Shown here piece by piece: positions 1,220 to 20,723 of a stretch of DNA of 20,820 nt. Under the pieces are notes generated by a model, which did not search any database, was not told the DNA's origin, and saw only the letters and a program-made list of their open reading frames with translations. This stretch comes from a virus, in IMG/VR virus record IMGVR_UViG_3300020185_000307, positions 1-20,820 of that record. One strand, 5' to 3'. Made by a program: the position numbers and the translations under genes. How positions within the stretch are numbered: position 1 is the stretch's first letter; every line of letters begins with the position of its first letter.

Positions 1220-2680
1220 TTATTTCCATTCTAGTTTTTCTTGTGAGAAGGGATAGTTGGCATCTCTGTAAAATACTTTTCGTTTGGTCAAGTGTCGTTT
1301 GGCAAACTTACAGGTGCTGGTCACATCCCAGATTTGGACGTGGTCTTTGTCTTCCGCTTTCCTAATACCTCGCCCAATTGATTGTATAACACGGACAAAG
1401 CTCTTTCCGGGCTCAAGAAGAACCAGATTAAAAATCCTAGGGATATTAATACCCACAGCGGCCACACCATAAGTCGCCACAATAATCTTCCCAGTGCTTG
1501 TTGCAATTTCATCATATTCATCTTGTCTTGCTCCTGCTTTGGTTGCACCTGATACAAATACAGCTTGATCGCCCAGGCGCTCGATCAAGGCGTGGCCTGC
1601 TGCCACACGGTCTACCAATACCAGTGTATTGCCTGTGTCATTGACATGTGCAACCAAGCTGGCAATAGCCGATAATCTATCTGGCTCTTCTAATAAAAAC
1701 TTCAATTCGCTTTGGTAATTTGAAAATTCAGCATGGTCCACCAACTGCACAATGTTCACATGACATTGTGCCAACACTCCGCGATCTTGCAATTCGCTGG
1801 CACTGAGCTGATTAATAACAGGACCCAAACTGCACTTCAATGCTTGAAACTCAAACGGTTCTTTGGGCACAGTTCCGGTCAATCCCCAACGAATTGGCAC
1901 TCTAGCCATTATGCCAGTCAACAGTGTCTTGAGTGCATCAGCTTTGGCCATGTGTACTTCGTCTACCATTACACACACAACATCTTCAATGAAGTCTTGA
2001 ATAGTGACATCTGCTACACCACTCTTTGTGTTTTTCATCAGCACATTTAAACTTTGCCAAGTACAAATTGTATGTGTACGGCCAATTTCTTTGCGATCAC
2101 CAAAGTACACACCCACATCCAATCCCAAGTTGATGTAGTCTGCTTCGGTCTGTGTGACCAAACTCTTGTTGGGCACAATAACAATACTGCGACCATACGG
2201 TTCAATGCTCAAACTCAATGCCGCTGTCATCAATGTTTTGCCAGCACCTGTGGCCACTTCCTGTATACACTGTGGGTTGCCAAGAAAAGCATTGATAATC
2301 TCCACTTGGTAGTCACGCAACACCACAGGTTGTCCTGCCATGGGATGTGTCTTGGGCCATGATTTGTGTGCAAACGAATCTTCTTTGATGTGGTCAAAGT
2401 CAAATGTGGTTGAGTATGTGCGTTGATCATCCAGCTCAATGTCGTAATTGAACTTTTCAAGTATGGGCACAATCTCTGGCAGCAAGTTCACATAGGTACT
2501 GCCACCCAGTTGAAAATAACTGACCTTGCCGTCCCAACGACCTAGCCGCACTGCGGGCAAGTATCGGGCGCCCGGCACATCATATTTGAAAGCATTAGTT
2601 AATGCACGGCGTGCATCAAGTTCGAGCCCTTCAATTTTAATGTTAACTTCGTCTTTGATTATTATTGTGGCTGTTTTCAT
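1220..2680 (-). CDS. uvsW: UvsW-type superfamily 2 DNA helicase
   Basis: 486 aa, close to T4 UvsW (503 aa). Residues 1-90 match the UvsW N-terminal DNA-binding domain in style (RLGRWDGKV, as NGNWDGRI-like segments in T4). The helicase core has Q-region LRDYQ at 122-126, Walker A ATGAGKT at 143-149, DEVH box at 240-243, motif III LTGT at 267-270 and motif VI QSIGRGIRK at 433-441. UvsW is an ATP-dependent branch-specific helicase and annealing factor that resolves R-loops, regresses stalled forks and drives the switch to recombination-dependent replication, working with UvsX and UvsY, both encoded at the other end of this window. The ATG at 2680-2678 has no Shine-Dalgarno; the -10 of a strong promoter lies 8 nt upstream. 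Stop is at 1222-1220. Confidence 0.95.
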   Translation of the reverse strand: MKTATIIIKDEVNIKIEGLELDARRALTNAFKYDVPGARYLPAVRLGRWDGKVSYFQLGGSTYVNLLPEIVPILEKFNYDIELDDQRTYSTTFDFDHIKEDSFAHKSWPKTHPMAGQPVVLRDYQVEIINAFLGNPQCIQEVATGAGKTLMTAALSLSIEPYGRSIVIVPNKSLVTQTEADYINLGLDVGVYFGDRKEIGRTHTICTWQSLNVLMKNTKSGVADVTIQDFIEDVVCVMVDEVHMAKADALKTLLTGIMARVPIRWGLTGTVPKEPFEFQALKCSLGPVINQLSASELQDRGVLAQCHVNIVQLVDHAEFSNYQSELKFLLEEPDRLSAIASLVAHVNDTGNTLVLVDRVAAGHALIERLGDQAVFVSGATKAGARQDEYDEIATSTGKIIVATYGVAAVGINIPRIFNLVLLEPGKSFVRVIQSIGRGIRKAEDKDHVQIWDVTSTCKFAKRHLTKRKVFYRDANYPFSQEKLEWK

Positions 2681-2688
2681 TGTTGTTT

Positions 2689-2717
2689 AGTATACACTAT
2701 TTAAACAGTAAAGTCAA
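2689..2717 (-). promoter_or_regulatory. Sigma70-like early promoter of uvsW
   Basis: Minus strand TTGACT (2717-2712), 17-nt spacer, TATACT (2694-2689). The first two T of the -35 are the end of the T-tract of the upstream terminator. The spacer is nearly the same as in the promoter at 4582-4610. The -10 ends 8 nt before the uvsW ATG. Confidence 0.85.
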
Positions 2718-2747
2718 AAAAAAGCAGGTACTATTTTACTAATACCT
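2716..2747 (-). terminator. Rho-independent terminator after the three-gene cassette
   Basis: Minus strand stem AGGTATTA / TAGTACCT (8 bp, one T-G wobble), loop GTAAAA, then GC and eight T. It ends transcription of the 2778-4574 cassette and its T-tract merges into the -35 of the uvsW promoter. Confidence 0.85.
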
Positions 2748-2754
2748 TCATAGA

Positions 2755-2773
2755 AGAGTAGATTGTCTACTCT
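2755..2773 (-). other. Conserved upstream hairpin (module copy A)
   Basis: Perfect 8-bp inverted repeat AGAGTAGA / TCTACTCT with a 3-nt loop, lying between the stop codon at 2778 and the terminator. It has no T-tract of its own. The same hairpin occurs at 4647-4665 with one G-T wobble. Confidence 0.75.
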
Positions 2774-2777
2774 AACT

Positions 2778-3338
2778 TTACCCTACACCCGATTGTATTA
2801 CTAACCAGTTTTGATAAACATCACTGCCTCTTTTATCAACTGGAATGCTTAGTATGTTATTTAATTCTGGTAATACATTTCCGCTCATTATGGATTCTAA
2901 TTTTACAGTTTTAGATGTGTGTTCTCTAACTAAATTTGAAAAATCAAGCATCATTTGAGCATAGTCGGCGACGGTAGATGCGCCACAAGCTGATTGCATT
3001 TCATCCCAGACATGTGGTCGATGAAAATTTTTAAATCTGTGTGCGGCTGTTAATGCTACTTTAATATCGTCGCAAACAATCCCAATAAAAGAATGTTTAC
3101 GGTCAATATGATAAGGCAAATCGTGACTAGATATTGATCGATAATTGGTGTCTGTTTCTACTTGTTTCAAGTAATCGTCTTTGTCTTTAGTAGTAGGAAA
3201 TTGATGAGGTTTCTTAAGACGTTGTCTAATGTCTGTATGACTCATTTTTTTACCTTTAAATTGACAGTCTCTGTGATCTATTATTGCAGAAATCAAGTCG
3301 CCGCAAGTACCGCCCATATAACACACAATTTCAATCAT
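2778..3338 (-). CDS. Unknown cassette protein with GGTCGD N-terminal motif
   Basis: 186 aa from ATG 3338-3336; a GTG at 3350 is possible but the ATG overlaps the TGA of the upstream gene as ATGA, the usual coupling in this genome. The N-terminus is a hydrophobic strand followed by a Gly-rich turn (MIEIVCYMGGTCGDLISAII), which looks like the first strand and loop of a nucleotide- or cofactor-binding fold but is not a Walker A. A second hydrophobic strand (SFIGIVCDDIKVAL) lies near residue 85. I have seen similar MGG.GGD starts in uncultured marine phage proteins without known role. A P-loop-like or sulfotransferase-like fold is only a guess. It is the last gene of the three-gene cassette and is followed by hairpin and terminator. 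Confidence 0.8.
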   Translation of the reverse strand: MIEIVCYMGGTCGDLISAIIDHRDCQFKGKKMSHTDIRQRLKKPHQFPTTKDKDDYLKQVETDTNYRSISSHDLPYHIDRKHSFIGIVCDDIKVALTAAHRFKNFHRPHVWDEMQSACGASTVADYAQMMLDFSNLVREHTSKTVKLESIMSGNVLPELNNILSIPVDKRGSDVYQNWLVIQSGVG

Positions 3339-4027
3339 GCTACGTTCCACTCATTTCCGTTATACACAAACCAAAATTTTAAATTTCCATTTGTTGTGTC
3401 TGGATTTTCTAACATATCATAATATCCGTTACTGTCTGGTTCTTTTTTAGGAAACTCGATACTGTGCCAAACTAATTTTAAATTGTGCATTTTTTCTAAA
3501 CTTAGCGCCCAATCTAACATGAAGGCTTCAATGTCTACTGTTAATCTATTAACTATAATTTGTGTATCTCTGAAACTGTAAAAAAATCTACAACCAGGTT
3601 TCATTGCACTGATATAATGCTCAAAATGTTTTGTCAATCCATCTAACGTTACCCACAAGTCGCCTCGATTATTAATAACTGCAAAGTTGTCTGCTTTTTC
3701 TCCTACTGCGTTTTCTAATTCGCTTCTGTCAGACACAATCTTGACGTTATTGTAAAATGTCTTGACAACCGGATGCATTTCTATTACTTCTATTTCGGGA
3801 TAAGCATCTTTAATGTAGTAACCGCTGCTTGCAAAAAATACAGTTTTACCGGGCTGACAATTTTTTAAAATTGCATAATCATACTCGTCCATGATAAATT
3901 TATCCGTATTCTTTCTGTTCCAAAGCCAATATTGATGTTTTAGTCTACCAAGTCGGTATCTGATATACTGTGTCTTCCAATCAGTTTTAATGCTACTTTG
4001 ATTAAAAAATTCTAAAATTTTAGTCAT
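3335..4027 (-). CDS. Unknown cassette protein, weakly methyltransferase-like
   Basis: 230 aa from ATG 4027-4025, overlapping the end of the upstream gene by 8 nt. The middle part alternates strands and helices in a Rossmann-like order: TVFFASSGYYIKDAYPEIEVIEMHP around residues 62-86 could correspond to motif I and the acidic loop of a class I methyltransferase, and FAVINNRGDLW and KPGCRFFYSFRD to later strands. The glycine-rich SAM loop (GxGxG) is missing, so any methyltransferase activity is doubtful. The sequence looks more AT-rich than the flanking uvsW and ATPase genes. It lies in the middle of the cassette between the two regulatory modules. Function unknown. Confidence 0.8.
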   Translation of the reverse strand: MTKILEFFNQSSIKTDWKTQYIRYRLGRLKHQYWLWNRKNTDKFIMDEYDYAILKNCQPGKTVFFASSGYYIKDAYPEIEVIEMHPVVKTFYNNVKIVSDRSELENAVGEKADNFAVINNRGDLWVTLDGLTKHFEHYISAMKPGCRFFYSFRDTQIIVNRLTVDIEAFMLDWALSLEKMHNLKLVWHSIEFPKKEPDSNGYYDMLENPDTTNGNLKFWFVYNGNEWNVA

Positions 4028-4574
4028 TTTTTAACTCGATAAAAAAATGTCTGTCGGGAATAGCCCACGTAAACGCATTACCATAATCAATGTAATCTAA
4101 ACTTATATCAATGATGTCAACATCCGGCAATTCTTTTTTAAGCCACTGGGTAATTGCCAGTGTAAAGTTGGCGTCCAAGGACAAATCATGATAACTGTTG
4201 TCTATATTGATGTAATGCCTGTTTAGACACAAATACAATTTTGAACACTTGGTTAATTGTAGTTGTATTTGATTTATAATTTCAGGGCAAGGATATCTGC
4301 TAAATTTTTGATCTGTTATTACGGTTATGTCAGCATCGGCACTATGCTTGCACCTTTCAACAACAAAGTTATTAAACACATCTGTGTCGGTTTTAAATTT
4401 AACTTTTTTAAATCCGTTTAATGTAATAAAATCTTCAATTTGTTTTTCTCTACGAAGTTTGGTTTCCTCAATGAAAAAATTTCGTTGCAGTCGGTTAAAT
4501 ATTTTTGACCATCTGTATAAGCTACGTGTTGGCTGAACTATTAATTCTTTATCTAAATTTGATAAGATATGCAT
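4020..4574 (-). CDS. Unknown cassette protein, first gene after promoter
   Basis: 184 aa from ATG 4574-4572. The N-terminal third is basic and helical (RSLYRWSKIFNRLQRNF, then an EETKLRREKQIEDF helix); the rest alternates short strands and helices (DADITVITDQ, KLYLCLNRHYINID, DVDIIDISLDYIDYG). No motif or membrane segment is recognisable. There is no Shine-Dalgarno: the -10 box TATAAT ends 7 nt before the ATG, implying a leaderless mRNA. It is the promoter-proximal gene of the three-gene cassette, coupled by an 8-nt overlap to the next. Function unknown. Confidence 0.8.
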   Translation of the reverse strand: MHILSNLDKELIVQPTRSLYRWSKIFNRLQRNFFIEETKLRREKQIEDFITLNGFKKVKFKTDTDVFNNFVVERCKHSADADITVITDQKFSRYPCPEIINQIQLQLTKCSKLYLCLNRHYINIDNSYHDLSLDANFTLAITQWLKKELPDVDIIDISLDYIDYGNAFTWAIPDRHFFIELKND

Positions 4575-4581
4575 ACAGTTA

Positions 4582-4610
4582 ATTATACACTATTTAAACT
4601 GTAAAGTCAA
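4582..4610 (-). promoter_or_regulatory. Sigma70-like early promoter of the three-gene cassette
   Basis: Minus strand TTGACT (4610-4605), 17-nt spacer, TATAAT (4587-4582), 7 nt from the ATG at 4574. The spacer differs from the uvsW promoter at one base (TTTACAG versus TTTACTG). Confidence 0.88.
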
Positions 4611-4640
4611 AAAAAACAGGCACTGTTTTACCAATGCCTG
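4609..4640 (-). terminator. Rho-independent terminator after the AAA+ ATPase gene
   Basis: Minus strand stem CAGGCATTG / CAGTGCCTG (9 bp with one T-G wobble), loop GTAAAA, then eight T. Compared with 2716-2747, two base pairs differ on both sides of the stem so that pairing is kept. Confidence 0.88.
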
Positions 4641-4646
4641 CTGTAA

Positions 4647-4665
4647 AGAGTAGATTGTCTACCCT
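4647..4665 (-). other. Conserved upstream hairpin (module copy B)
   Basis: Minus strand AGGGTAGA / TCTACTCT with loop CAA; the single difference from copy A gives a G-T wobble so the stem is kept. It starts 13 nt after the stop codon of the ATPase gene. Confidence 0.7.
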
Positions 4666-4678
4666 GGAGTTAAATTGT

Positions 4679-5698
4679 TCAAGCAACTTTCATGCAAGTT
4701 GTTTCTGCCAAACGCATCCAATTGCTGGCACTCAGTTTGCGCAAGTCTGCAATCTTCAATGCCATACGCAAGCTCACCTCACGCAAACGATTTTGATTTG
4801 TATCCATAAAAGAGATAATCTCCTTTTGCGCTTCTTCTTCAAAGTCATAATCCGAAAACAACACGCCGTCTTTGGCAATTTGTTGAATACGCAAAATCTT
4901 ATCACGCATGGTGTCCAGTGTCAAATCCAAATAGTGACAACGACTCTGCAATGCATCCAAGTGATCTTTGAGCTTCTGCGACTTCATTTTGTCAAACTTC
5001 AAGTTGGTGATAAAAATCACACTGCCTTTGAATTCAAAACGCTCTGGGATACCTTCACGTCGTAGAGCACTGCTCTCACTCAACCACGAAATGGTACGCT
5101 TCTTGCCAGAGTCCAATGCACCTTTCAGCAAGTTAAGAGCAACATCATCTAGCAAAATGCTGTCACAGTCGTCAAACACCACAACACAATTTTCGTCGGA
5201 GAATTTGTAAAGTGTCTGGTACAAGCCAATTGGGGTAGCACTGCCTTTGACAACTTCTGCACGAAGTCGCTTGCCAGCCAATTTGTCAAACAAACAAGAC
5301 TTTTCGATTTCTTGTTCAACTCCAAAGCTCTTGCCCACGCCAGGAGGGCCACTTACAATCATAGCACGAATGTCACCGCTCACTGTTGCCTTTGTCATTT
5401 CAGTCAAAATGTCAAATCGCTCACGGATGCGGTTGATTGCTTGCTCGTCAGTTTCTTCTACTACAGGAACAGCGGGTGCTGATTGTTGCTCCATATTTTC
5501 TCCATTGATGTATTCAAAATCTTCAATAGCATCCACACGGATGCGAACAGTTTTAAACTCTGGGCCAAAGTAGCCATCAGAATCCACAGTTACATAATTG
5601 CCTTTTGCTCCAGAAGTGTAACCTTTTACAAGTTTGAAGCTGATGTTGTTGACAGGACGATTGCGGTAAACACCGTTTTTGATACGAATTGCGTTCAA
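4679..5698 (-). CDS. AAA+ ATPase with N-terminal beta domain (TTG start)
   Basis: 339 aa starting at TTG 5698-5696, chosen because AAGGAG lies 6 nt upstream and there is no ATG near; longer reading upstream would run into the -10 box. Residues 1-65 look beta-rich and may bind nucleic acid or a partner. The AAA+ core has Walker A GPPGVGKS at 117-124, Walker B VVVFDD at 172-177, sensor-1-like ITN at 230-232, and SRC at 252-254, reminiscent of clamp-loader SRC boxes. The Walker B reads DDCD rather than the DE.D of gp44/RFC and the N-terminus lacks the usual KYRP start, so I do not call it gp44. It could be a helicase-loader, MoxR-like or divergent loader ATPase. It has its own promoter and terminator. 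Confidence 0.88.
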   Translation of the reverse strand: MNAIRIKNGVYRNRPVNNISFKLVKGYTSGAKGNYVTVDSDGYFGPEFKTVRIRVDAIEDFEYINGENMEQQSAPAVPVVEETDEQAINRIRERFDILTEMTKATVSGDIRAMIVSGPPGVGKSFGVEQEIEKSCLFDKLAGKRLRAEVVKGSATPIGLYQTLYKFSDENCVVVFDDCDSILLDDVALNLLKGALDSGKKRTISWLSESSALRREGIPERFEFKGSVIFITNLKFDKMKSQKLKDHLDALQSRCHYLDLTLDTMRDKILRIQQIAKDGVLFSDYDFEEEAQKEIISFMDTNQNRLREVSLRMALKIADLRKLSASNWMRLAETTCMKVA

Positions 5699-5731
5699 TT
5701 TTAACTCCTTGTTGTTGCTGTCTATGTGTAT

Positions 5732-5760
5732 ATTATAGCAAAAGAGCAATTATTGGTCAA
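5732..5760 (-). promoter_or_regulatory. Sigma70-like promoter of the AAA+ ATPase gene
   Basis: Minus strand TTGACC (5760-5755), 17-nt spacer, TGC-TATAAT (5737-5732), an extended -10. The -35 lies inside the last codons of the 50-aa gene. Leader of about 30 nt with AAGGAG before the TTG start. Confidence 0.88.
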
Positions 5761-5902
5761 CTGGGTTGTTGGCCACTGTTTCAGTGCTGAGTACTTGTTG
5801 TGTAAAAACAACACCTCCCAGATTGAGTTGATAAGTGTCTGCTAAAGACTTGACATAAAATTGCATGACTTTGCCCGTTTTTGTAATCAACGTGTACTGC
5901 AT
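5750..5902 (-). CDS. Small 50-aa unknown protein
   Basis: A short gene from ATG 5902-5900 to TAA 5752-5750, preceded by AAGGACC 6-7 nt upstream and by its own consensus-like promoter and leader, which supports it as real. The product starts MQYTLITKTGKVMQFYVKSL and ends in a polar tail NNPVDQ; it is predicted to be a small beta-rich soluble protein without cysteine pairs or membrane segment. It precedes the AAA+ ATPase gene and its 3' end overlaps the -35 box of that gene's promoter. Read-through would co-transcribe the two. Function unknown. Confidence 0.75.
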   Translation of the reverse strand: MQYTLITKTGKVMQFYVKSLADTYQLNLGGVVFTQQVLSTETVANNPVDQ

Positions 5903-5933
5903 TTTAGGTCCTTTTTTGTTGCTCTATGTACAT

Positions 5934-5962
5934 ATTATAGCAAACAGCGTATTATACGTCAA
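5934..5962 (-). promoter_or_regulatory. Sigma70-like promoter of the 50-aa gene
   Basis: Minus strand TTGACG (5962-5957), 17-nt spacer, TGC-TATAAT (5939-5934). It starts only a few bases after the T-tract of the terminator at 5967-5995, the third terminator/promoter junction in the window. Confidence 0.88.
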
Positions 5963-5966
5963 CCAC

Positions 5967-5995
5967 AAAAAAACCCTGTATAAAACAGGGTTTTT
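5967..5995 (-). terminator. Rho-independent terminator of the virion-protein gene
   Basis: Minus strand AAAAACCCTG, 7-nt loop, CAGGGTTTTTTT. The stem is flanked by A- and T-tracts, so it could work on both strands. It lies about 20 nt after the stop codon at 6016. Confidence 0.88.
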
Positions 5996-7511: not shown

Positions 7512-8273
7512 ATGAAAATCGTAATAGTAACCGGCGGGTTTGATCCTGTGCATTCCGGACACATAGCATATCTTAAAGCGGCACGTGAGTTGGGTGATCG
7601 ACTTATTGTCGGTGTCAATTCAGACCAATGGCTTGAACGAAAGAAGGGCAAGTCGTTTATGCCTGTCACAGAGCGTGTGAGCATTATAGAAAATCTCAAA
7701 CCAGTGGACGGTGTTTTGTTGTTCAACGACAACGACGGATCTGCTGTAGAAGCTATTAAGAATGTAAGACAGTTATATCCTGATGCAGACTTGGTGTTTG
7801 CCAATGGCGGTGATCGTACCAATGTAAACATTCCGGAAATGAGTTTTGAGGATGATCGATTGACATTTGAGTTCGGTGTAGGCGGTACCAACAAAGCCAA
7901 CTCAAGCAGTTGGATACTGGAAGAATGGAAAAAACCCAAAACTGTTCGTGCATGGGGATATTATCGTGTGCTACACGAAGTTGGTGCCAATGTCAAACTA
8001 AAAGAACTCACAGTTGCTCCAAAAACTTGTCTAAGTATGCAACGTCACGAACACCGTGCAGAGTTTTGGTTTGTTGCCGAAGGTGAAGGTGCAGTATACA
8101 CACTGGACAAATCAACTGATCACGATTTGAAATGTCACATGACAGCGCACCAACATACTTTTATTGCCACAAACGAATGGCACATGTTGTGCAACGAAAC
8201 TGATCGACCACTTAGACTGATCGAAATTCAATACGGCGAGAACTGTGTAGAAGAAGATATCGAACGCAAATGA
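7512..8273 (+). CDS. Cytidylyltransferase-like / cupin (mannose-6-P isomerase type II-like) fusion
   Basis: 253 aa from ATG 7512. Residues 1-135 are a HIGH-type nucleotidyltransferase: GGFDPVHSGH at 8-17 (HxGH H14-H17), VGVNSD at 33-38, ERVSII at 54-59, and ANGGDR at 97-102, most like the C-terminal domain of HldE and glycerol-3-phosphate cytidylyltransferases. Residues about 145-253 are a cupin like the isomerase domain of type II phosphomannose isomerases: QRHEHRAEFW at 177-186 with metal-ligand His/Glu, EWH at 222-224, and IEIQYGENCVEEDIER at the end. Substrates (a sugar phosphate plus CTP or similar) are inference. First gene of the rightward operon; its TGA overlaps the next ATG. Confidence 0.88.
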   Translation: MKIVIVTGGFDPVHSGHIAYLKAARELGDRLIVGVNSDQWLERKKGKSFMPVTERVSIIENLKPVDGVLLFNDNDGSAVEAIKNVRQLYPDADLVFANGGDRTNVNIPEMSFEDDRLTFEFGVGGTNKANSSSWILEEWKKPKTVRAWGYYRVLHEVGANVKLKELTVAPKTCLSMQRHEHRAEFWFVAEGEGAVYTLDKSTDHDLKCHMTAHQHTFIATNEWHMLCNETDRPLRLIEIQYGENCVEEDIERK

Positions 8274-9178
8274 CCCGTGTTGTAGCATTCAATGGCTTGA
8301 TCAATAGATTTTTTCAAGTTGATTTTAAAATACCCAACTGGAAGATATTAAATTTTGACGATCCAGACAAACACAATGCTGATTGTTATTTTCAAATCAA
8401 CGTAAAGAAGCGCAAGAGTCAACACATAGAAGAATATGATTTTATAACAGCGTCAGGAAAGCCTGTGCTTGTTTGCGAATCAAATTTGTTTAGAAAAAAC
8501 AGTTTTTCAGTTCACTATCCGGACAAGTGCTATTATAGATTAGGGTGGGGACATTTCTTAAGAAGCGGCAACTTCAACAATGCCAACAGTCCGCCAGATA
8601 GATGGAATCATATACAAAAATTACAAAACATAGAAATCAAGCCATGGCAACAACGTGATGGCCATGTGCTACTGTGTTTACAAAAGCCCGGTGATTCAAC
8701 TCTTAACAGCTTGTATCAAAAGTACAACACCTACGAAGCGTGGATAGCACACGCTGTGGAACAAATCAAGTTGTACACAGACGCACCCATAATGATTCGC
8801 CCACATTTGAAAACAAAGAAAATAAACTTCAACAAGTTTATAGGAAAAAACATAACATTGAGCGAAACATGGAACCAGCGTACAGTGTACGAAGGCGGTG
8901 CTGGATTGCAAAAAGACCTTGATGCTGCCTGTGCAGTTGTGGGGTACAACAGCAACGCATTGGTAGAAAGTACCTGTGAGGGCATTCCTACTTTTCCGCT
9001 CAGTGACGAAAGTGTTGTGTGGGACATAAGCAATCGAATCAAAAATTTATCCAACCCGGCATTAGACATAGATCGCACACAATGGTTGCACAACGCTGCT
9101 TATATGATCTGGAATATGAACGAGTTAAACGACGGCACAGCATGGAATCATTTGAAAGGAGTATACTTTGATGATTGA
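8270..9178 (+). CDS. GT-B/capsule-transferase-like protein, paralogue 1
   Basis: 302 aa, ATG 8270 overlapping the previous stop (ATGA). It belongs to a family with four members in this window (also 11228, 12133, 17361). Shared landmarks: a DRW..(I/F)Q segment (110-115), a strand with LQKPGDS (137-143), IRPH (176-179), a VVGYNSNALVES strand-turn near 222, GIPTF, and a C-terminal DRTQWL...AWNHL. The RPH and late NS...E...G.P motifs are typical of GT-B type capsule transferases (KpsC/KpsS and TagF-like relatives), hence the call; donor may be a CMP/CDP-activated compound, which would fit the cytidylyltransferase next door, but this is inference. Confidence 0.72.
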   Translation: MTRVVAFNGLINRFFQVDFKIPNWKILNFDDPDKHNADCYFQINVKKRKSQHIEEYDFITASGKPVLVCESNLFRKNSFSVHYPDKCYYRLGWGHFLRSGNFNNANSPPDRWNHIQKLQNIEIKPWQQRDGHVLLCLQKPGDSTLNSLYQKYNTYEAWIAHAVEQIKLYTDAPIMIRPHLKTKKINFNKFIGKNITLSETWNQRTVYEGGAGLQKDLDAACAVVGYNSNALVESTCEGIPTFPLSDESVVWDISNRIKNLSNPALDIDRTQWLHNAAYMIWNMNELNDGTAWNHLKGVYFDD

Positions 9179-10327: not shown

Positions 10328-11231
10328 ACCAAAGTTTACTGTTGTACACCGCGCTGACCCAAACAATGTAGGCGATCTGGCCAGTAACCCATTACAATAC
10401 TTCCTTGAACCAGAAGAATATCAAGTGGTTGACATCACACGAATAAACGAAACAGAGTACGACAGTCGATTGCCAATGGTTGTTGGTGGTGGTGGACTCA
10501 TTGGCAATGAATTTTTTGGAGACGCTATTCCGTCATTGCTGCCATCGGCAGATTTAGACCAGTTGACACGTATACAAAAACACAAATGGAATCTTAAAGA
10601 CCTGGCCAACGAAAAAGCCCATGAAGAATTTCAATTTGCACACCGTAATTTTATCAAACGGTACATGAATAAAATTAAACCAGTGTCTGCGCCGCGACAC
10701 ATTTGGGGTGCTGGACACAACGGACCACTGGACAAGCGAGGCATTGCCGATATAGTCTATCCAGACTGGCTTATGAATTTTGACGAAGTTGGTGTTCGTG
10801 ATTGGGATCAAAATCAACCATGGGTGCCTTGTGCCAGTTGCATGCATCCAGCACTGGACAAAGAATATGCAATTAAAAATGATGTTGTATTTTTTGAACA
10901 CAAGAAACAGTTAATTAAAAACTTTGGCAATGATAGTATACCGCGTTTTGTAAACTCTGGAAGTAACATTGATCAAACTATAGAACTACTGGGCAGTGCC
11001 AACATAATCCTGACCAACAGTTATCACGGCGCTTACTGGGGTGTGTTGTTAGGAAAAAAAGTCATTGTGGTAGAGCCGTGGAGCAGTAAATTTTTGAGTA
11101 TGAAATATGCTCCTTGGATTTTAAAACGTGATCAAGATTGGAAAGAAGTAGTTGATATGGTTAAAATACGTGAAGGAGCACTAGAATCTTCTCGTCTTGC
11201 AACTACAAAATTCTGGGAAAAAATCAAATGA
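10320..11231 (+). CDS. Polysaccharide pyruvyl transferase-like protein
   Basis: 303 aa, ATG 10320 with AGAGG just upstream. Features of the polysaccharide pyruvyl transferase family (PF04230, CsaB/WcaK type): N-terminal VGDLASNPLQYF around 17-28, the MVVGGGGLIGNEFF loop at 53-66, IWGAGHN mid-protein, VGVRD, and the late TNSYHGAYWGVLLGKKVIVV segment with the conserved Ser-x-His. Such enzymes put ketal-linked pyruvate from phosphoenolpyruvate on sugars of surface polysaccharides, giving a negative charge; some family members are sugar transferases instead. Central gene of the rightward operon; TGA overlaps next ATG. Confidence 0.85.
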   Translation: MTKPKFTVVHRADPNNVGDLASNPLQYFLEPEEYQVVDITRINETEYDSRLPMVVGGGGLIGNEFFGDAIPSLLPSADLDQLTRIQKHKWNLKDLANEKAHEEFQFAHRNFIKRYMNKIKPVSAPRHIWGAGHNGPLDKRGIADIVYPDWLMNFDEVGVRDWDQNQPWVPCASCMHPALDKEYAIKNDVVFFEHKKQLIKNFGNDSIPRFVNSGSNIDQTIELLGSANIILTNSYHGAYWGVLLGKKVIVVEPWSSKFLSMKYAPWILKRDQDWKEVVDMVKIREGALESSRLATTKFWEKIK

Positions 11232-12136
11232 AATTTGTAGCATACTTGGCGTCTGTTCCGCCTAGCAAAAAAAGTCAACACAAGTCAGATTTGCTAAGAA
11301 GATTTGTAGGCGGAGTTCAGGCTGCTGGCGACCATGGAGTGCTGGCCACACGTCCTCAGTTGGTCAATGCCAACGTGGCTTTTATACAAGGATGGCCACA
11401 TGCTACAGGCAAACAAGCTGCACACAATTTGTTTAGAAAAGAAGTATTTGATTTTCAAAAGAGAAACAACAATAGACTACTGGTAGTTGACAGCAATTTG
11501 TTCAACTACCGCGGAAAGAACGAATACTCTAGATACAGTTTTGATGGAGTATTTCCAAGTACAGGAAATTACTTTTGGGACAATCCAGATCCTGCTCACT
11601 GGCAATCTATAAGTCGCAACACCGGCATCGCTTTAAAAGATTGGCGGCGCAACGGCAATCATATACTGGTCTGCTTGCAACGCAACGGCGGATGGAGTAT
11701 GGGAACTTACGATATAGTCGAATGGGCCAACAAAACCATTGCCAAAATACAGCAAGCAACAAGCCGTCCTATTGTACTACGTCCGCACCCCGGTGATAAA
11801 TCAGCAAGACAACATATTGGTGACGTCGGTCACATGCGTAATGTAAAAATCTCAGAACCAGGATCTACACTGTTAGACGATCTCAAAGATTGCTGGGCTG
11901 TGGTCAATCATAATTCTAGTCCCACAGTGGGATCTGTGATCGAAGGGTACCCAATTTTTGTCACAGATCCAGAAAAGAGTCAAGCAGCTCAGGTTGCCAA
12001 TACAGATTTTAGACTAATAGAAAATCCTGCTATGCCAGATCGTCAGGAATGGCTAGAACGGATTGCCATGTGTCACTGGAGCCAAAAAGAAATCATGTCC
12101 GGAGAAGCGTGGCAACACATTAGGACTTATGTATGA
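11228..12136 (+). CDS. GT-B/capsule-transferase-like protein, paralogue 2
   Basis: 302 aa, ATG 11228 in an ATGA overlap. Same family as 8270, 12133 and 17361. Visible landmarks: W.SISRNTGIALKDWR, ILVCLQRNGG, IVLRPHPGDK, CWAVVNHNSSPTVGS, EGYPIFV, and DRQEWLERIAMCHWSQKEI ending in GEAWQHI. The VVNHNS and RPHP elements are the likely nucleotide-binding half of a GT-B fold. It has the most typical motif set of the four. Its TGA overlaps the ATG of the next paralogue, so two family members are directly adjacent, as expected for a tandem duplication followed by divergence. Confidence 0.72.
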   Translation: MKFVAYLASVPPSKKSQHKSDLLRRFVGGVQAAGDHGVLATRPQLVNANVAFIQGWPHATGKQAAHNLFRKEVFDFQKRNNNRLLVVDSNLFNYRGKNEYSRYSFDGVFPSTGNYFWDNPDPAHWQSISRNTGIALKDWRRNGNHILVCLQRNGGWSMGTYDIVEWANKTIAKIQQATSRPIVLRPHPGDKSARQHIGDVGHMRNVKISEPGSTLLDDLKDCWAVVNHNSSPTVGSVIEGYPIFVTDPEKSQAAQVANTDFRLIENPAMPDRQEWLERIAMCHWSQKEIMSGEAWQHIRTYV

Positions 12137-13065
12137 AAATTGCAAGCATACGCGGCAGTGTCAAAGGAGTAAAATCTATAGTCACAGGAATGCTTGTGTC
12201 AGGTGATGACTATGCGCTGGTTGATTCTATTGACGATCCTGTTGCACAACAAGCTGATGTGTTTTTGCAAACCAACCAGATTAAAACAAAATTTACAACA
12301 GAAGGAATATTAGGATCATACGAACAAATATTGCAAAGTTCAAAACCATTCTTAGTACACGAAAGTGCAAATTTTAGACAGTACGCACATAGTCACGGAT
12401 ACACACGACTTGGTTGGTATAGTTATTTGTGGACACAAGGCATATGTGGCAACGAAAATTCACCGTCTGACCGCTGGAATAAATTTCAAGCCGCAACTGG
12501 TATACAACTTAAAGATTGGCGCAGTCCCGGAGATAACATTGTTATTATGGGACAAAAATCAGGTGACAGCAGTCTAGTTGACCTTCAGTTCAACAAAGTA
12601 AGATTTTCAGTATGGGTACAGCAGGTAATTGACACTATACGACTGTATACCGATCGCCCTATTGTGATACGCCAGCATCCAAGAGGAAGAAAAGGTCGCG
12701 GGCATTTGGCACTGTTAGCCAATGCAAACACAAATGTTTCGATCAGCGACTGGGTAGCCAACGATCAAGATTCTTCATCAGGCGGCAGCAGTTTGCAAGC
12801 TGATTTAGACAACGCATACTGTGTAGTAACATACAACAGTCTTAGTGCTGTAGAAGCAGTGGTTCAAGGAATTCCTGTGTTTGCATTACATAATGGATCC
12901 ATGGCCTGGCCTGTGGCACATCATTTGTTATCGCAAATTGAAAACTTAAACTACAACATTGACAGAACACAATGGTGTAACGATATAGCATACACTCAGT
13001 GGAACAGCAAAGAACTAGCAAGTGGAGAGGCATGGGCTCATCTAAAGCCCATTATATACAGATGA
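12133..13065 (+). CDS. GT-B/capsule-transferase-like protein, paralogue 3
   Basis: 310 aa, ATG 12133 in an ATGA overlap with paralogue 2. It shares SPSDRW.KFQAATGIQLKDWR, VIMGQKSGDSS, the late VVTYNSLSAVEA and GIPVFAL segments, and the C-terminal DRTQWCNDIAYTQW...GEAWAHL. It is closer to paralogue 1 (HYNS/YNS type, PSDRW with Asn-Ser before it, LYTD before the RPH-like motif) than to paralogue 2. The motif is IRQHP instead of RPHP, so one position of the putative active-site loop differs. Function as a transferase is inference. Followed by a methyltransferase with ATGA coupling. Confidence 0.72.
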   Translation: MKIASIRGSVKGVKSIVTGMLVSGDDYALVDSIDDPVAQQADVFLQTNQIKTKFTTEGILGSYEQILQSSKPFLVHESANFRQYAHSHGYTRLGWYSYLWTQGICGNENSPSDRWNKFQAATGIQLKDWRSPGDNIVIMGQKSGDSSLVDLQFNKVRFSVWVQQVIDTIRLYTDRPIVIRQHPRGRKGRGHLALLANANTNVSISDWVANDQDSSSGGSSLQADLDNAYCVVTYNSLSAVEAVVQGIPVFALHNGSMAWPVAHHLLSQIENLNYNIDRTQWCNDIAYTQWNSKELASGEAWAHLKPIIYR

Positions 13066-17360: not shown

Positions 17361-18203
17361 ATGAGAGTAAGTATTTTTGACCAATATGGTGCACTTAACA
17401 GTTCACCTATTTTCGAAGCCATAAGAACAGGTCTGGACCGGATTGGCGTTGAACACAACAACATGGACAGTTCAGCCGACGTTGCTGTTATATGGAGTCA
17501 ACTGTGGCACGGCCGTATGCGACACAATCGCGAAGTGTGGCAAGCATTTAGGTCAAGCGGAAGGTCTGTTATAGTAGCAGAAGTGGGAATGTTGCGCCGT
17601 GGCAGTACTTGGAAACTGGGACTGAACGGAACCGGGAGTACAGCGTATTATGGAAAAGATTTGATCCCAGGGCGGGCAGATCAGTTGCGTCTAGAGGCCA
17701 AGCCGTGGATCACAAATGGATACAATATTGTTATTGCTGCCCAGCGATCTAACAGCGAGCAATGGGCAGGGCAACCTCCTACTGTTGCTTGGCTAACAGA
17801 AACTGCTCGTAAGATTAGAGAATACACAGACAAGCCTATTGTTATACGCCCGCATCCGCGACAGCGCATAGGCGACGTTCCGGGATGTGTTATAGAAATG
17901 CCAAGGCCTGTACAAGGAACGTACGATAACTTTGATTATGATCGTAGTTTAAAAACAGCGTGGGCTGTGGTCAACCACAACAGCGGACCGGGATCACAAG
18001 CAATATTAGCAGGTGTCCCGGCGTTTGTTGATGCGTCTAGTTTGGCAGCACCTGTTGGTAACTTGGATTTGTCTACAATAAACAATCCATCAAGACCGGA
18101 CCGTGCTCAATGGTTAGAACAATTGGCACACACTGAATGGTACACAGACGAAATTGCCACTGGGTTACCACTTGAGCGGTTAATGGTGTCCCATAACAGA
18201 TAG
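17361..18203 (+). CDS. GT-B/capsule-transferase-like protein, paralogue 4
   Basis: 280 aa from ATG 17361, a weak AGG is 7 nt upstream. It is the shortest and most diverged of the four-member family: IVIAAQRSNSE replaces the LQK.GDS segment, IVIRPHPRQR is the RPHP motif, TAWAVVNHNSGPGSQA and AGVPAFV the second half, and DRAQWLEQLAHTEWY the C-terminus. The DRW segment of the others is replaced by LRLEAKPW. It stands alone on the plus strand between minus-strand genes, so it probably arrived or was flipped separately from the rightward operon. It runs 24 bp into the convergent methyltransferase gene. Confidence 0.72.
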   Translation: MRVSIFDQYGALNSSPIFEAIRTGLDRIGVEHNNMDSSADVAVIWSQLWHGRMRHNREVWQAFRSSGRSVIVAEVGMLRRGSTWKLGLNGTGSTAYYGKDLIPGRADQLRLEAKPWITNGYNIVIAAQRSNSEQWAGQPPTVAWLTETARKIREYTDKPIVIRPHPRQRIGDVPGCVIEMPRPVQGTYDNFDYDRSLKTAWAVVNHNSGPGSQAILAGVPAFVDASSLAAPVGNLDLSTINNPSRPDRAQWLEQLAHTEWYTDEIATGLPLERLMVSHNR

Positions 18204-19652: not shown

Positions 19653-20723
19653 TTATTCCTCCGTTGTTTCTTCTAACGTTTCTTCAATCACGGCTGTTTG
19701 TTCTTTCAATCCTGAAAAATAAGCCATTAACTTGTCCAAACAACCATCTTCGTTTGCTTCCCACTTTTTACGAAACTTTTTAACAATTTCACCATCGGCA
19801 GTTACAAATACCAAACTGTTGCCTTCTCTCTTGAGAATTTCTTTTTTCTCTGCCAAATCAACTAGTCCACTGTGCGGACTCATTCCGGTTGAATAAGGAA
19901 TTTTGACCTGCATGCCTTCAAAAGGTTTTGCGTAGCGTGTCTTCATTACCTTACACCCTGCACGGATACCGTTGACTTCAGAAACTTTATTGCCGTCTTC
20001 GTCTTCTTTCAGCTTCATTTTCTTCATTGCAACAACAATCGAGCTTGCATAGATGAAACCTTGTCCGCCGCTGATCTTATCATCTGGATCAAACATGTCT
20101 TGACTAGCATATGTATGATTGGTTGCGACCAAGCCTACGTTATGACTGCCAAACATGTTGACGGAGTTTCGAACAAGGCTTGTAAGTGCCTTGGGTTTAC
20201 GACCCATGTCACCTTTCATATCGCCTGCTTCGAACTGGTTCACATCAGTCGGAGTTAACAGCATGCCCAAGCTGTCAATTACAAACAACACTTTCATGCG
20301 CTCTTCCTCTGGAAGTGCTTTGTAGTCTGTCATGAATGTGGAAATTGTTTTAGCAACGTCGTCGATCATGCTCATGTTGAGTTTAAGCAACTTTTCGGGG
20401 CTAGTGTCAACACCCAGTGCGCGAAGCCATGCTTCGTCGAGTGCGTTTTCTGTGTCAACAAGAATAACAAATATATCTTGCTCTTGTGCGTTCTTTACAA
20501 TGTTGCCTGAACAGATGTAGCTCTTGCCTGCACCTGATTCGCCGGCAAATACTGTAACTTTGCCCAGTGGAATACCTTTGTTGAAGTCACCTGAGATCAG
20601 ATAGTTAAGTGCATAGTTGCCTGTGCTGATCCAGTCAGTTGGATCGTTAAATCCAATGCTTAGGCCTTGGATACTTTTTGTGATGTCCTTGCGGAACTTT
20701 GAGATATCAAATGGTTTTGCCAT
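19653..20723 (-). CDS. uvsX: UvsX RecA-like recombinase
   Basis: 356 aa from ATG 20723-20721 with AAAAAGGC upstream. RecA/RAD51 core: Walker A GESGAGKS at 61-68, Walker B VLFVIDS at 145-151, and L2-like region with VGLVATNHTYASQDMF. T4 UvsX is 391 aa, marine forms are often shorter. It forms filaments on single-stranded DNA and performs strand exchange for recombination-dependent replication and repair with UvsY and UvsW, all present here. First gene of the early operon uvsX - acidic gene - uvsY - methyltransferase. C-terminus is acidic (EETLEETTEE). Confidence 0.96.
   Translation of the reverse strand: MAKPFDISKFRKDITKSIQGLSIGFNDPTDWISTGNYALNYLISGDFNKGIPLGKVTVFAGESGAGKSYICSGNIVKNAQEQDIFVILVDTENALDEAWLRALGVDTSPEKLLKLNMSMIDDVAKTISTFMTDYKALPEEERMKVLFVIDSLGMLLTPTDVNQFEAGDMKGDMGRKPKALTSLVRNSVNMFGSHNVGLVATNHTYASQDMFDPDDKISGGQGFIYASSIVVAMKKMKLKEDEDGNKVSEVNGIRAGCKVMKTRYAKPFEGMQVKIPYSTGMSPHSGLVDLAEKKEILKREGNSLVFVTADGEIVKKFRKKWEANEDGCLDKLMAYFSGLKEQTAVIEETLEETTEE

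Follow-up and report, generated by a model that had tools for sequence, protein, structure and literature searches.

The window, i.e. the whole stretch of 20,820 bases analysed here (IMG/VR virus record IMGVR_UViG_3300020185_000307, positions 1 to 20,820), carries on its minus strand a gene for an AAA ATPase (4679..5695; phrog_1250, E 1.9e-85), three genes g3, g2 and g1, and the gene for the helicase UvsW (1220..2680), which has Pfam helicase domains and matches DNA helicase PHROGs. The AAA gene and uvsW, which are syntenic in relatives as well, form the left and right borders, respectively, of what will be called the slot, and the genes between them are its cargo. These are g3 (4020..4574, 184 aa), g2 (3335..4027, 230 aa) and g1 (2778..3338, 186 aa), in an order that is kept in relatives, with an ATGA overlap between g2 and g1 in the window. 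The original prediction had left all three unassigned, and their matches in Pfam and PHROGs are indeed insignificant; g3 belongs to no known family, and comparison of the cargo protein sequences with the PDB returned nothing significant. AlphaFold2 models compared by Foldseek predict a class I methyltransferase-like fold for g2 (pLDDT 83.5; E 1.8e-6, TM about 0.5) and a sulfotransferase-like P-loop fold for g1 (pLDDT 94.7), the latter assignment being weak since the best Foldseek E is only 2.5e-3.

Two copies of a module flank these three genes on the minus strand, as had been described. In the left copy, between the AAA gene and g3, a hairpin H1 (AGGGTAGA-caa-TCTACTCT, 4665-4647) is followed by a hairpin H2 (AGGCATTG-gtaaaa-CAGTGCCT, 4639-4618), which together with the T8 after it is a predicted intrinsic terminator and which ranked first, with 11 pairs, in a terminator scan of the window. 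Next comes a putative sigma-70-type promoter (4610-4582) composed of TTGACT (4610-4605), 17 nt and TATAAT (4587-4582), with 11/12 consensus matches, ahead of the ATG at 4574; the last T's of the terminator's T-tract double as part of the -35 box. The right copy, between g1 and uvsW, repeats this layout with H1 (AGAGTAGA-caa-TCTACTCT, 2773-2755), H2 (AGGTATTA-gtaaaa-TAGTACCT, 2747-2726, again a predicted intrinsic terminator with T8) and a putative promoter at 2717-2689 (TTGACT 2717-2712, 17 nt, TATACT 2694-2689; 10/12 consensus matches) that precedes the uvsW ATG at 2680. The copies differ in H2 at two positions on both sides and in H1 by a G-U wobble, exactly as first noticed. Among the direct-repeat families of the window they are listed first (57 nt at 81% identity and 39 nt at 92%), and the promoter core occurs there twice where chance would give 0.10 matches. 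A covariance model of the window type, built partly from both of these copies themselves, retrieved them from the 20.8-kb record with E 2.5e-30 and 1.3e-26 and found no third good copy there (next match E 0.31).

Other features of the window deserve mention. A second, smaller duplication comprises 5721-5763 and 5923-5995; two similar sigma-70-type promoters on the minus strand (5760-5732 and 5962-5934) flank a 50-aa ORF (5750-5902), with a strong terminator-like hairpin (5995-5969) in front of the outer promoter. Four proteins of about 280-310 aa with C-terminal motifs in common (8270-9178, 11228-12136, 12133-13065 and 17361-18203) look like paralogues, and their genes belong to a stretch in which glycosyltransferase- and methyltransferase-like genes cluster. 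Finally, the ORF 19653-20723 may encode a UvsX-like protein.

Structure and distribution of the double hairpin

In the commonest variant among relatives, H1 has the form CCYGGG...GGUUGGCUCC...CCCRGG, its apex GGUUGGCUCC being invariant in 38 modules, a set that was gathered via the AAA gene and afterwards sorted by hairpin type. Across these modules 13 of the 19 base pairs have changed on both sides, whereas 500 shuffles of the set gave a mean of 5.3 such pairs and never as many as 13, and the paired cells fell from 98% to 30-50% when the pairing partners were slid. This upholds the earlier claim of selection on RNA pairing. In the same relatives H2 consists of 10 pairs with 99% of cells paired, and it displays the G+C-rich stem followed by a T-tract expected of an intrinsic terminator (in the left copy of the window an 11-pair stem and T8). 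Covariation is weaker in the ten window-type modules alone (3 pairs, a value that 38 of 500 shuffles equalled or exceeded), the pairing of helix 1 being kept in 97% of cells. That the two variants are homologous is supported by the finding that the model of the GGUUGGCUCC-apex variant also detects both window copies (E 8.2e-8 and 2.7e-5). The apex of H1 lacks this conservation in the lineage of the window itself, which makes a single function of H1 across the clade doubtful.

Within a set of 115 modules, gathered partly via the H1 core and hence with a biased apex count, 14 have no TTGAC-type box while 99 of the 101 others have TTGACT or TTGACA, and the promoter spacer measures 17 nt in 93 of the 98 modules scored. 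The H2 terminator and the promoter are predictions made from these sequences. A known RNA family was ruled out for the module in the five sequences searched, since Rfam 15 produced no match at gathering score in the window, L039, L045, L020 or L042.

The module was present at 64/64 AAA-uvsW junctions tested, once in 61 of them, and two copies were seen only in the window, L006 and L003 (with its near-identical contigs), counts that do not stand for a random sample because junctions were gathered partly via module or cargo searches. Covariance searches of 15 whole records of up to 349 kb, which may be incomplete, gave one strong match each, always at this junction; secondary matches were weak (E 1.4e-4 in G005, 0.02 in G002 and 0.05 in G009, the last on the opposite strand to the main match). 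The H1 core was matched at least 120 times in a scan of IMG/VR. Among the matches listed, 80 lie between AAA and uvsW, 21 adjoin one of these genes near a contig end and 19, all without H2, occur in unrelated contexts; likewise among the matches listed, those bearing the hairpin are at the AAA-uvsW junction in 101/101 cases. The record G002 contains 151 terminator-like hairpins, six of which have a fused promoter and only one H1. There was no match to the specific H1 pattern in bacterial genome contigs, and none in cultured phages by blastn with one module as query. In phage PA5oct, AAA and uvsW are about 108 kb apart, and neither its AAA region nor the uvsW region of Phosso gave an R1 match better than E 3. 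The pattern GTAGANNNTCTAC..GTAAAA, scanned in viral contigs, was too unspecific to be useful. Across the sequences searched, the module is site-bound and as a rule single-copy, not a dispersed element.

The secondary match in G005 lies around positions 10314-10388 of contig L232 (G005:206313-206387), where a porin-like gene is followed by an H2-type terminator-promoter fusion without a proper H1, and the occurrence of a porin on a viral contig may indicate a Gram-negative, perhaps betaproteobacterial, host.

Cargo states and exchange at the junction

A search with the AAA protein gave 80 loci, in which the order and strand of AAA and uvsW are kept wherever both are in reach, with a gap of 107 to 3,291 bases. 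The comparison of gene content in relatives that had been proposed revealed four cargo states behind uvsW proteins that are about 99% identical: no cargo, with one module and a gap of 110 (L004/L029); a single unassigned gene for a protein of about 288 aa (L010, L015); a single radical-SAM gene (L003/L005/L007; cargo gene c1 is radical SAM/SPASM); and g3-g2-g1 (the window, and L006, which has the same genes and both modules). A one-module AAA-uvsW junction is also found in L020/L021. Clustering of open frames outlined a few alternative cargo sets on the uvsW side of the module and small variable genes on its AAA side. At nearly all readable loci among the 66 found with g2, the order g3-g2-g1 is kept before uvsW, sometimes with an additional radical-SAM gene. 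Among these loci the right-hand copy of the module is confined to the window and L006, and elsewhere the three genes are accompanied by the left copy alone. Methyltransferase-like, sulfotransferase-like and radical SAM cargo suggests, to the extent that the predicted folds are correct, that enzymes of chemical modification are traded as allelic sets.

How often cargo changes was estimated on a uvsW tree of 138 junctions, which requires at least 51 changes of cargo state compared with 80.7 on average for shuffled labels. Since this is fewer than for shuffled labels, cargo appears to be partly inherited, yet often turned over. Among pairs of uvsW at least 95% identical, 190/290 differ in cargo, although these pairs are not independent and were sampled partly via cargo.

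Comparison of the window with L006 brought the most direct view of an exchange, because the cassette is mostly 98-100% identical between them while the flanks are only 78-90% identical. The near-identical tract extends from the left promoter to about 75 nt inside uvsW, the first 75 nt or so of the window's uvsW thus belonging to it, and in these sequences it records a single transfer whose breakpoints lie at the module and within uvsW. This bears out the view that the genes at 2778-4574 are swappable. Recombination between the two copies had been predicted to join AAA directly to uvsW, and junctions of this one-module form do exist, that of L004 being a left/right mosaic. Up to and including H2, its single module resembles the left copy at 12/13 informative positions; between the -10 box and the start codon it resembles the right copy at 6/6. 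Such a mosaic is compatible with an insertion at the module or an excision through it, in either direction. In L003, the left copy is without promoter and the right copy without most of H1. In L298 (2085-2222), part of the uvsW 5' end is found upstream of a g3-g2-g1 cassette that has a complete uvsW downstream, and this fragment is likely the footprint of the same kind of event.

Interpreting the AAA-uvsW junction

We consider it probable that the AAA-uvsW junction is a fixed cargo slot with a single-copy terminator-promoter anchor, whose cargo is swapped by homologous recombination, in a large clade of uncultured phages (some contigs are near 350 kb). The left edge of the slot would be formed by H1, the intrinsic terminator H2 and a T-tract continuous with the -35 box of a sigma-70 promoter of host type. 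Transcripts of the AAA operon would end at H2, and the fused promoter would start those of the downstream cargo and then uvsW, possibly with polymerase handed over across the fusion. As we infer from the breakpoints, homologous recombination in mixed infections would exchange the cargo sets, the module supplying the homology on the left and the 5' end of uvsW that on the right, so that every newly arriving cargo would come under one and the same insulated promoter. A second module before uvsW accompanies the cargo in the window and L006, and the resulting pair of direct repeats could recombine to the one-module state of the L004 type. What counts against this scenario are the 14/115 modules without a TTGAC-type box, the loss of the left promoter in L003 and the contigs L379, L381, L415 and L414, which carry the cassette or its relatives elsewhere with AAA/uvsW not in reach. 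In L379 (1754-3505) and L381 (4472-6223) the g3-g2-g1 cassette is near a PhoH-like gene and sulfotransferase-looking ORFs; L415 also carries the cassette, and L414 relatives of the three genes.

Parts of this arrangement have parallels elsewhere. The PeSLs (promoter early stem-loops) of T4-type phages, reportedly the subject of work by Arbiol in 2010 and Comeau in 2014, are likewise small intergenic composites of a terminator hairpin and a host-type promoter where gene modules are exchanged. As judged by sequence, both window copies have the stem-loop terminator and sigma-70-type early promoter of a PeSL (H2, T-tract, TTGACT-17-TATAMT), and they flank exchanged genes, as cargo swapping and the transferred cassette attest. 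In contrast to PeSLs, which have been described as dense where shuffling occurs (PMC4503421), the module has no dispersed copies in the 15 records but is single-copy in each genome at one fixed junction, and it has two hairpins with, in most relatives, a conserved apex in the first. It may work in part like a PeSL. Exchange regions bordered by homing endonucleases in phages (Barth, Dunham and Seed 2023, PMC10448857) similarly have a marked border and near-identical blocks of DNA exchanged between phages near essential genes. However, the window cassette is without a recognised endonuclease gene, and only L406 has one, inside an interrupted uvsW. As for the fused promoter, single-molecule studies of bacterial RNA polymerase report that the enzyme can remain DNA-bound once the RNA is released and restart nearby (PMC6978380, PMC6978322). 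A promoter placed right at a terminator could then serve a polymerase that has finished there, and this may also hold for the phage element.

The uvsW gene is split in L008 (1272-4047) and L406 (2949-5410) and interrupted also in L012 and L013. In the two split genes a Hint/intein splicing domain closes the first part; a free ORF follows, which carries NUMOD3 and TnsA-like endonuclease domains in L406 and is similar but unassigned in L008, after which the last ORF opens with an intein-like C-terminal stretch and resumes uvsW. As read from sequence, the layout resembles the split-intein arrangement of a 'fractured gene'.

Could the module be there for reasons other than exchange? It might be ordinary transcription punctuation between two operons, at a boundary that tolerates inserts and where accessory genes gather by chance, the module playing no part in their exchange. 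Terminator-promoter fusions without H1 do occur elsewhere (six in G002 and the one behind the porin-like gene in G005), and any position in conserved flanks can host a breakpoint, the right one lying inside uvsW itself. The concentration of cargo turnover at one module-marked place over the clade, the left breakpoint inside the module and the mosaic one-module state of L004 nevertheless speak against this explanation, which is possible but less probable. A dispersed, mobile PeSL-type cassette, as originally predicted, would spread through the genome and promote shuffling wherever it lands; its terminator hairpin and host-type promoter are the same kind of parts, and the module is duplicated around the cassette in the window, L006 and partly L003. 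However, the search for further copies that had been suggested found none that is strong elsewhere in the 20.8-kb record or in the 15 records of up to 349 kb, an outcome named beforehand as an argument against mobility and one that leaves the swapping of genes untouched. In addition, the three cargo genes are mostly without the right-hand copy, and a single hairpin among the 151 of G002 has H1. Because the element is single-copy and fixed, mobility of this kind is not supported and is quite improbable. An origin of replication or other single-copy DNA site, finally, is very improbable. A single copy with hairpins and a promoter adjoining a replication-recombination gene would suit it, but in G002 the GC skew does not switch where the module lies (about 162 kb), and the compensatory changes fit RNA/hairpin pairing with a T-tract terminator.

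A further proposal, which can be made only tentatively next to that of a recombining slot, is that H1-H2 represents a new structured RNA family of uncultured phages, in which the invariant GGUUGGCUCC apex would bind a phage or host factor or pair in trans, controlling the hand-over from the AAA operon to transcription of the cargo and uvsW, while from its fixed place it would also serve as the anchor for recombination in a slot of allelic accessory genes. The double hairpin with its covarying stems is a candidate for a new RNA family. For the biology of this large uncultured phage clade, the junction would provide a defined, searchable address for accessory-gene exchange and, with empty, single and alternative cargo states known, the swapping of genes without breaking transcription becomes testable.
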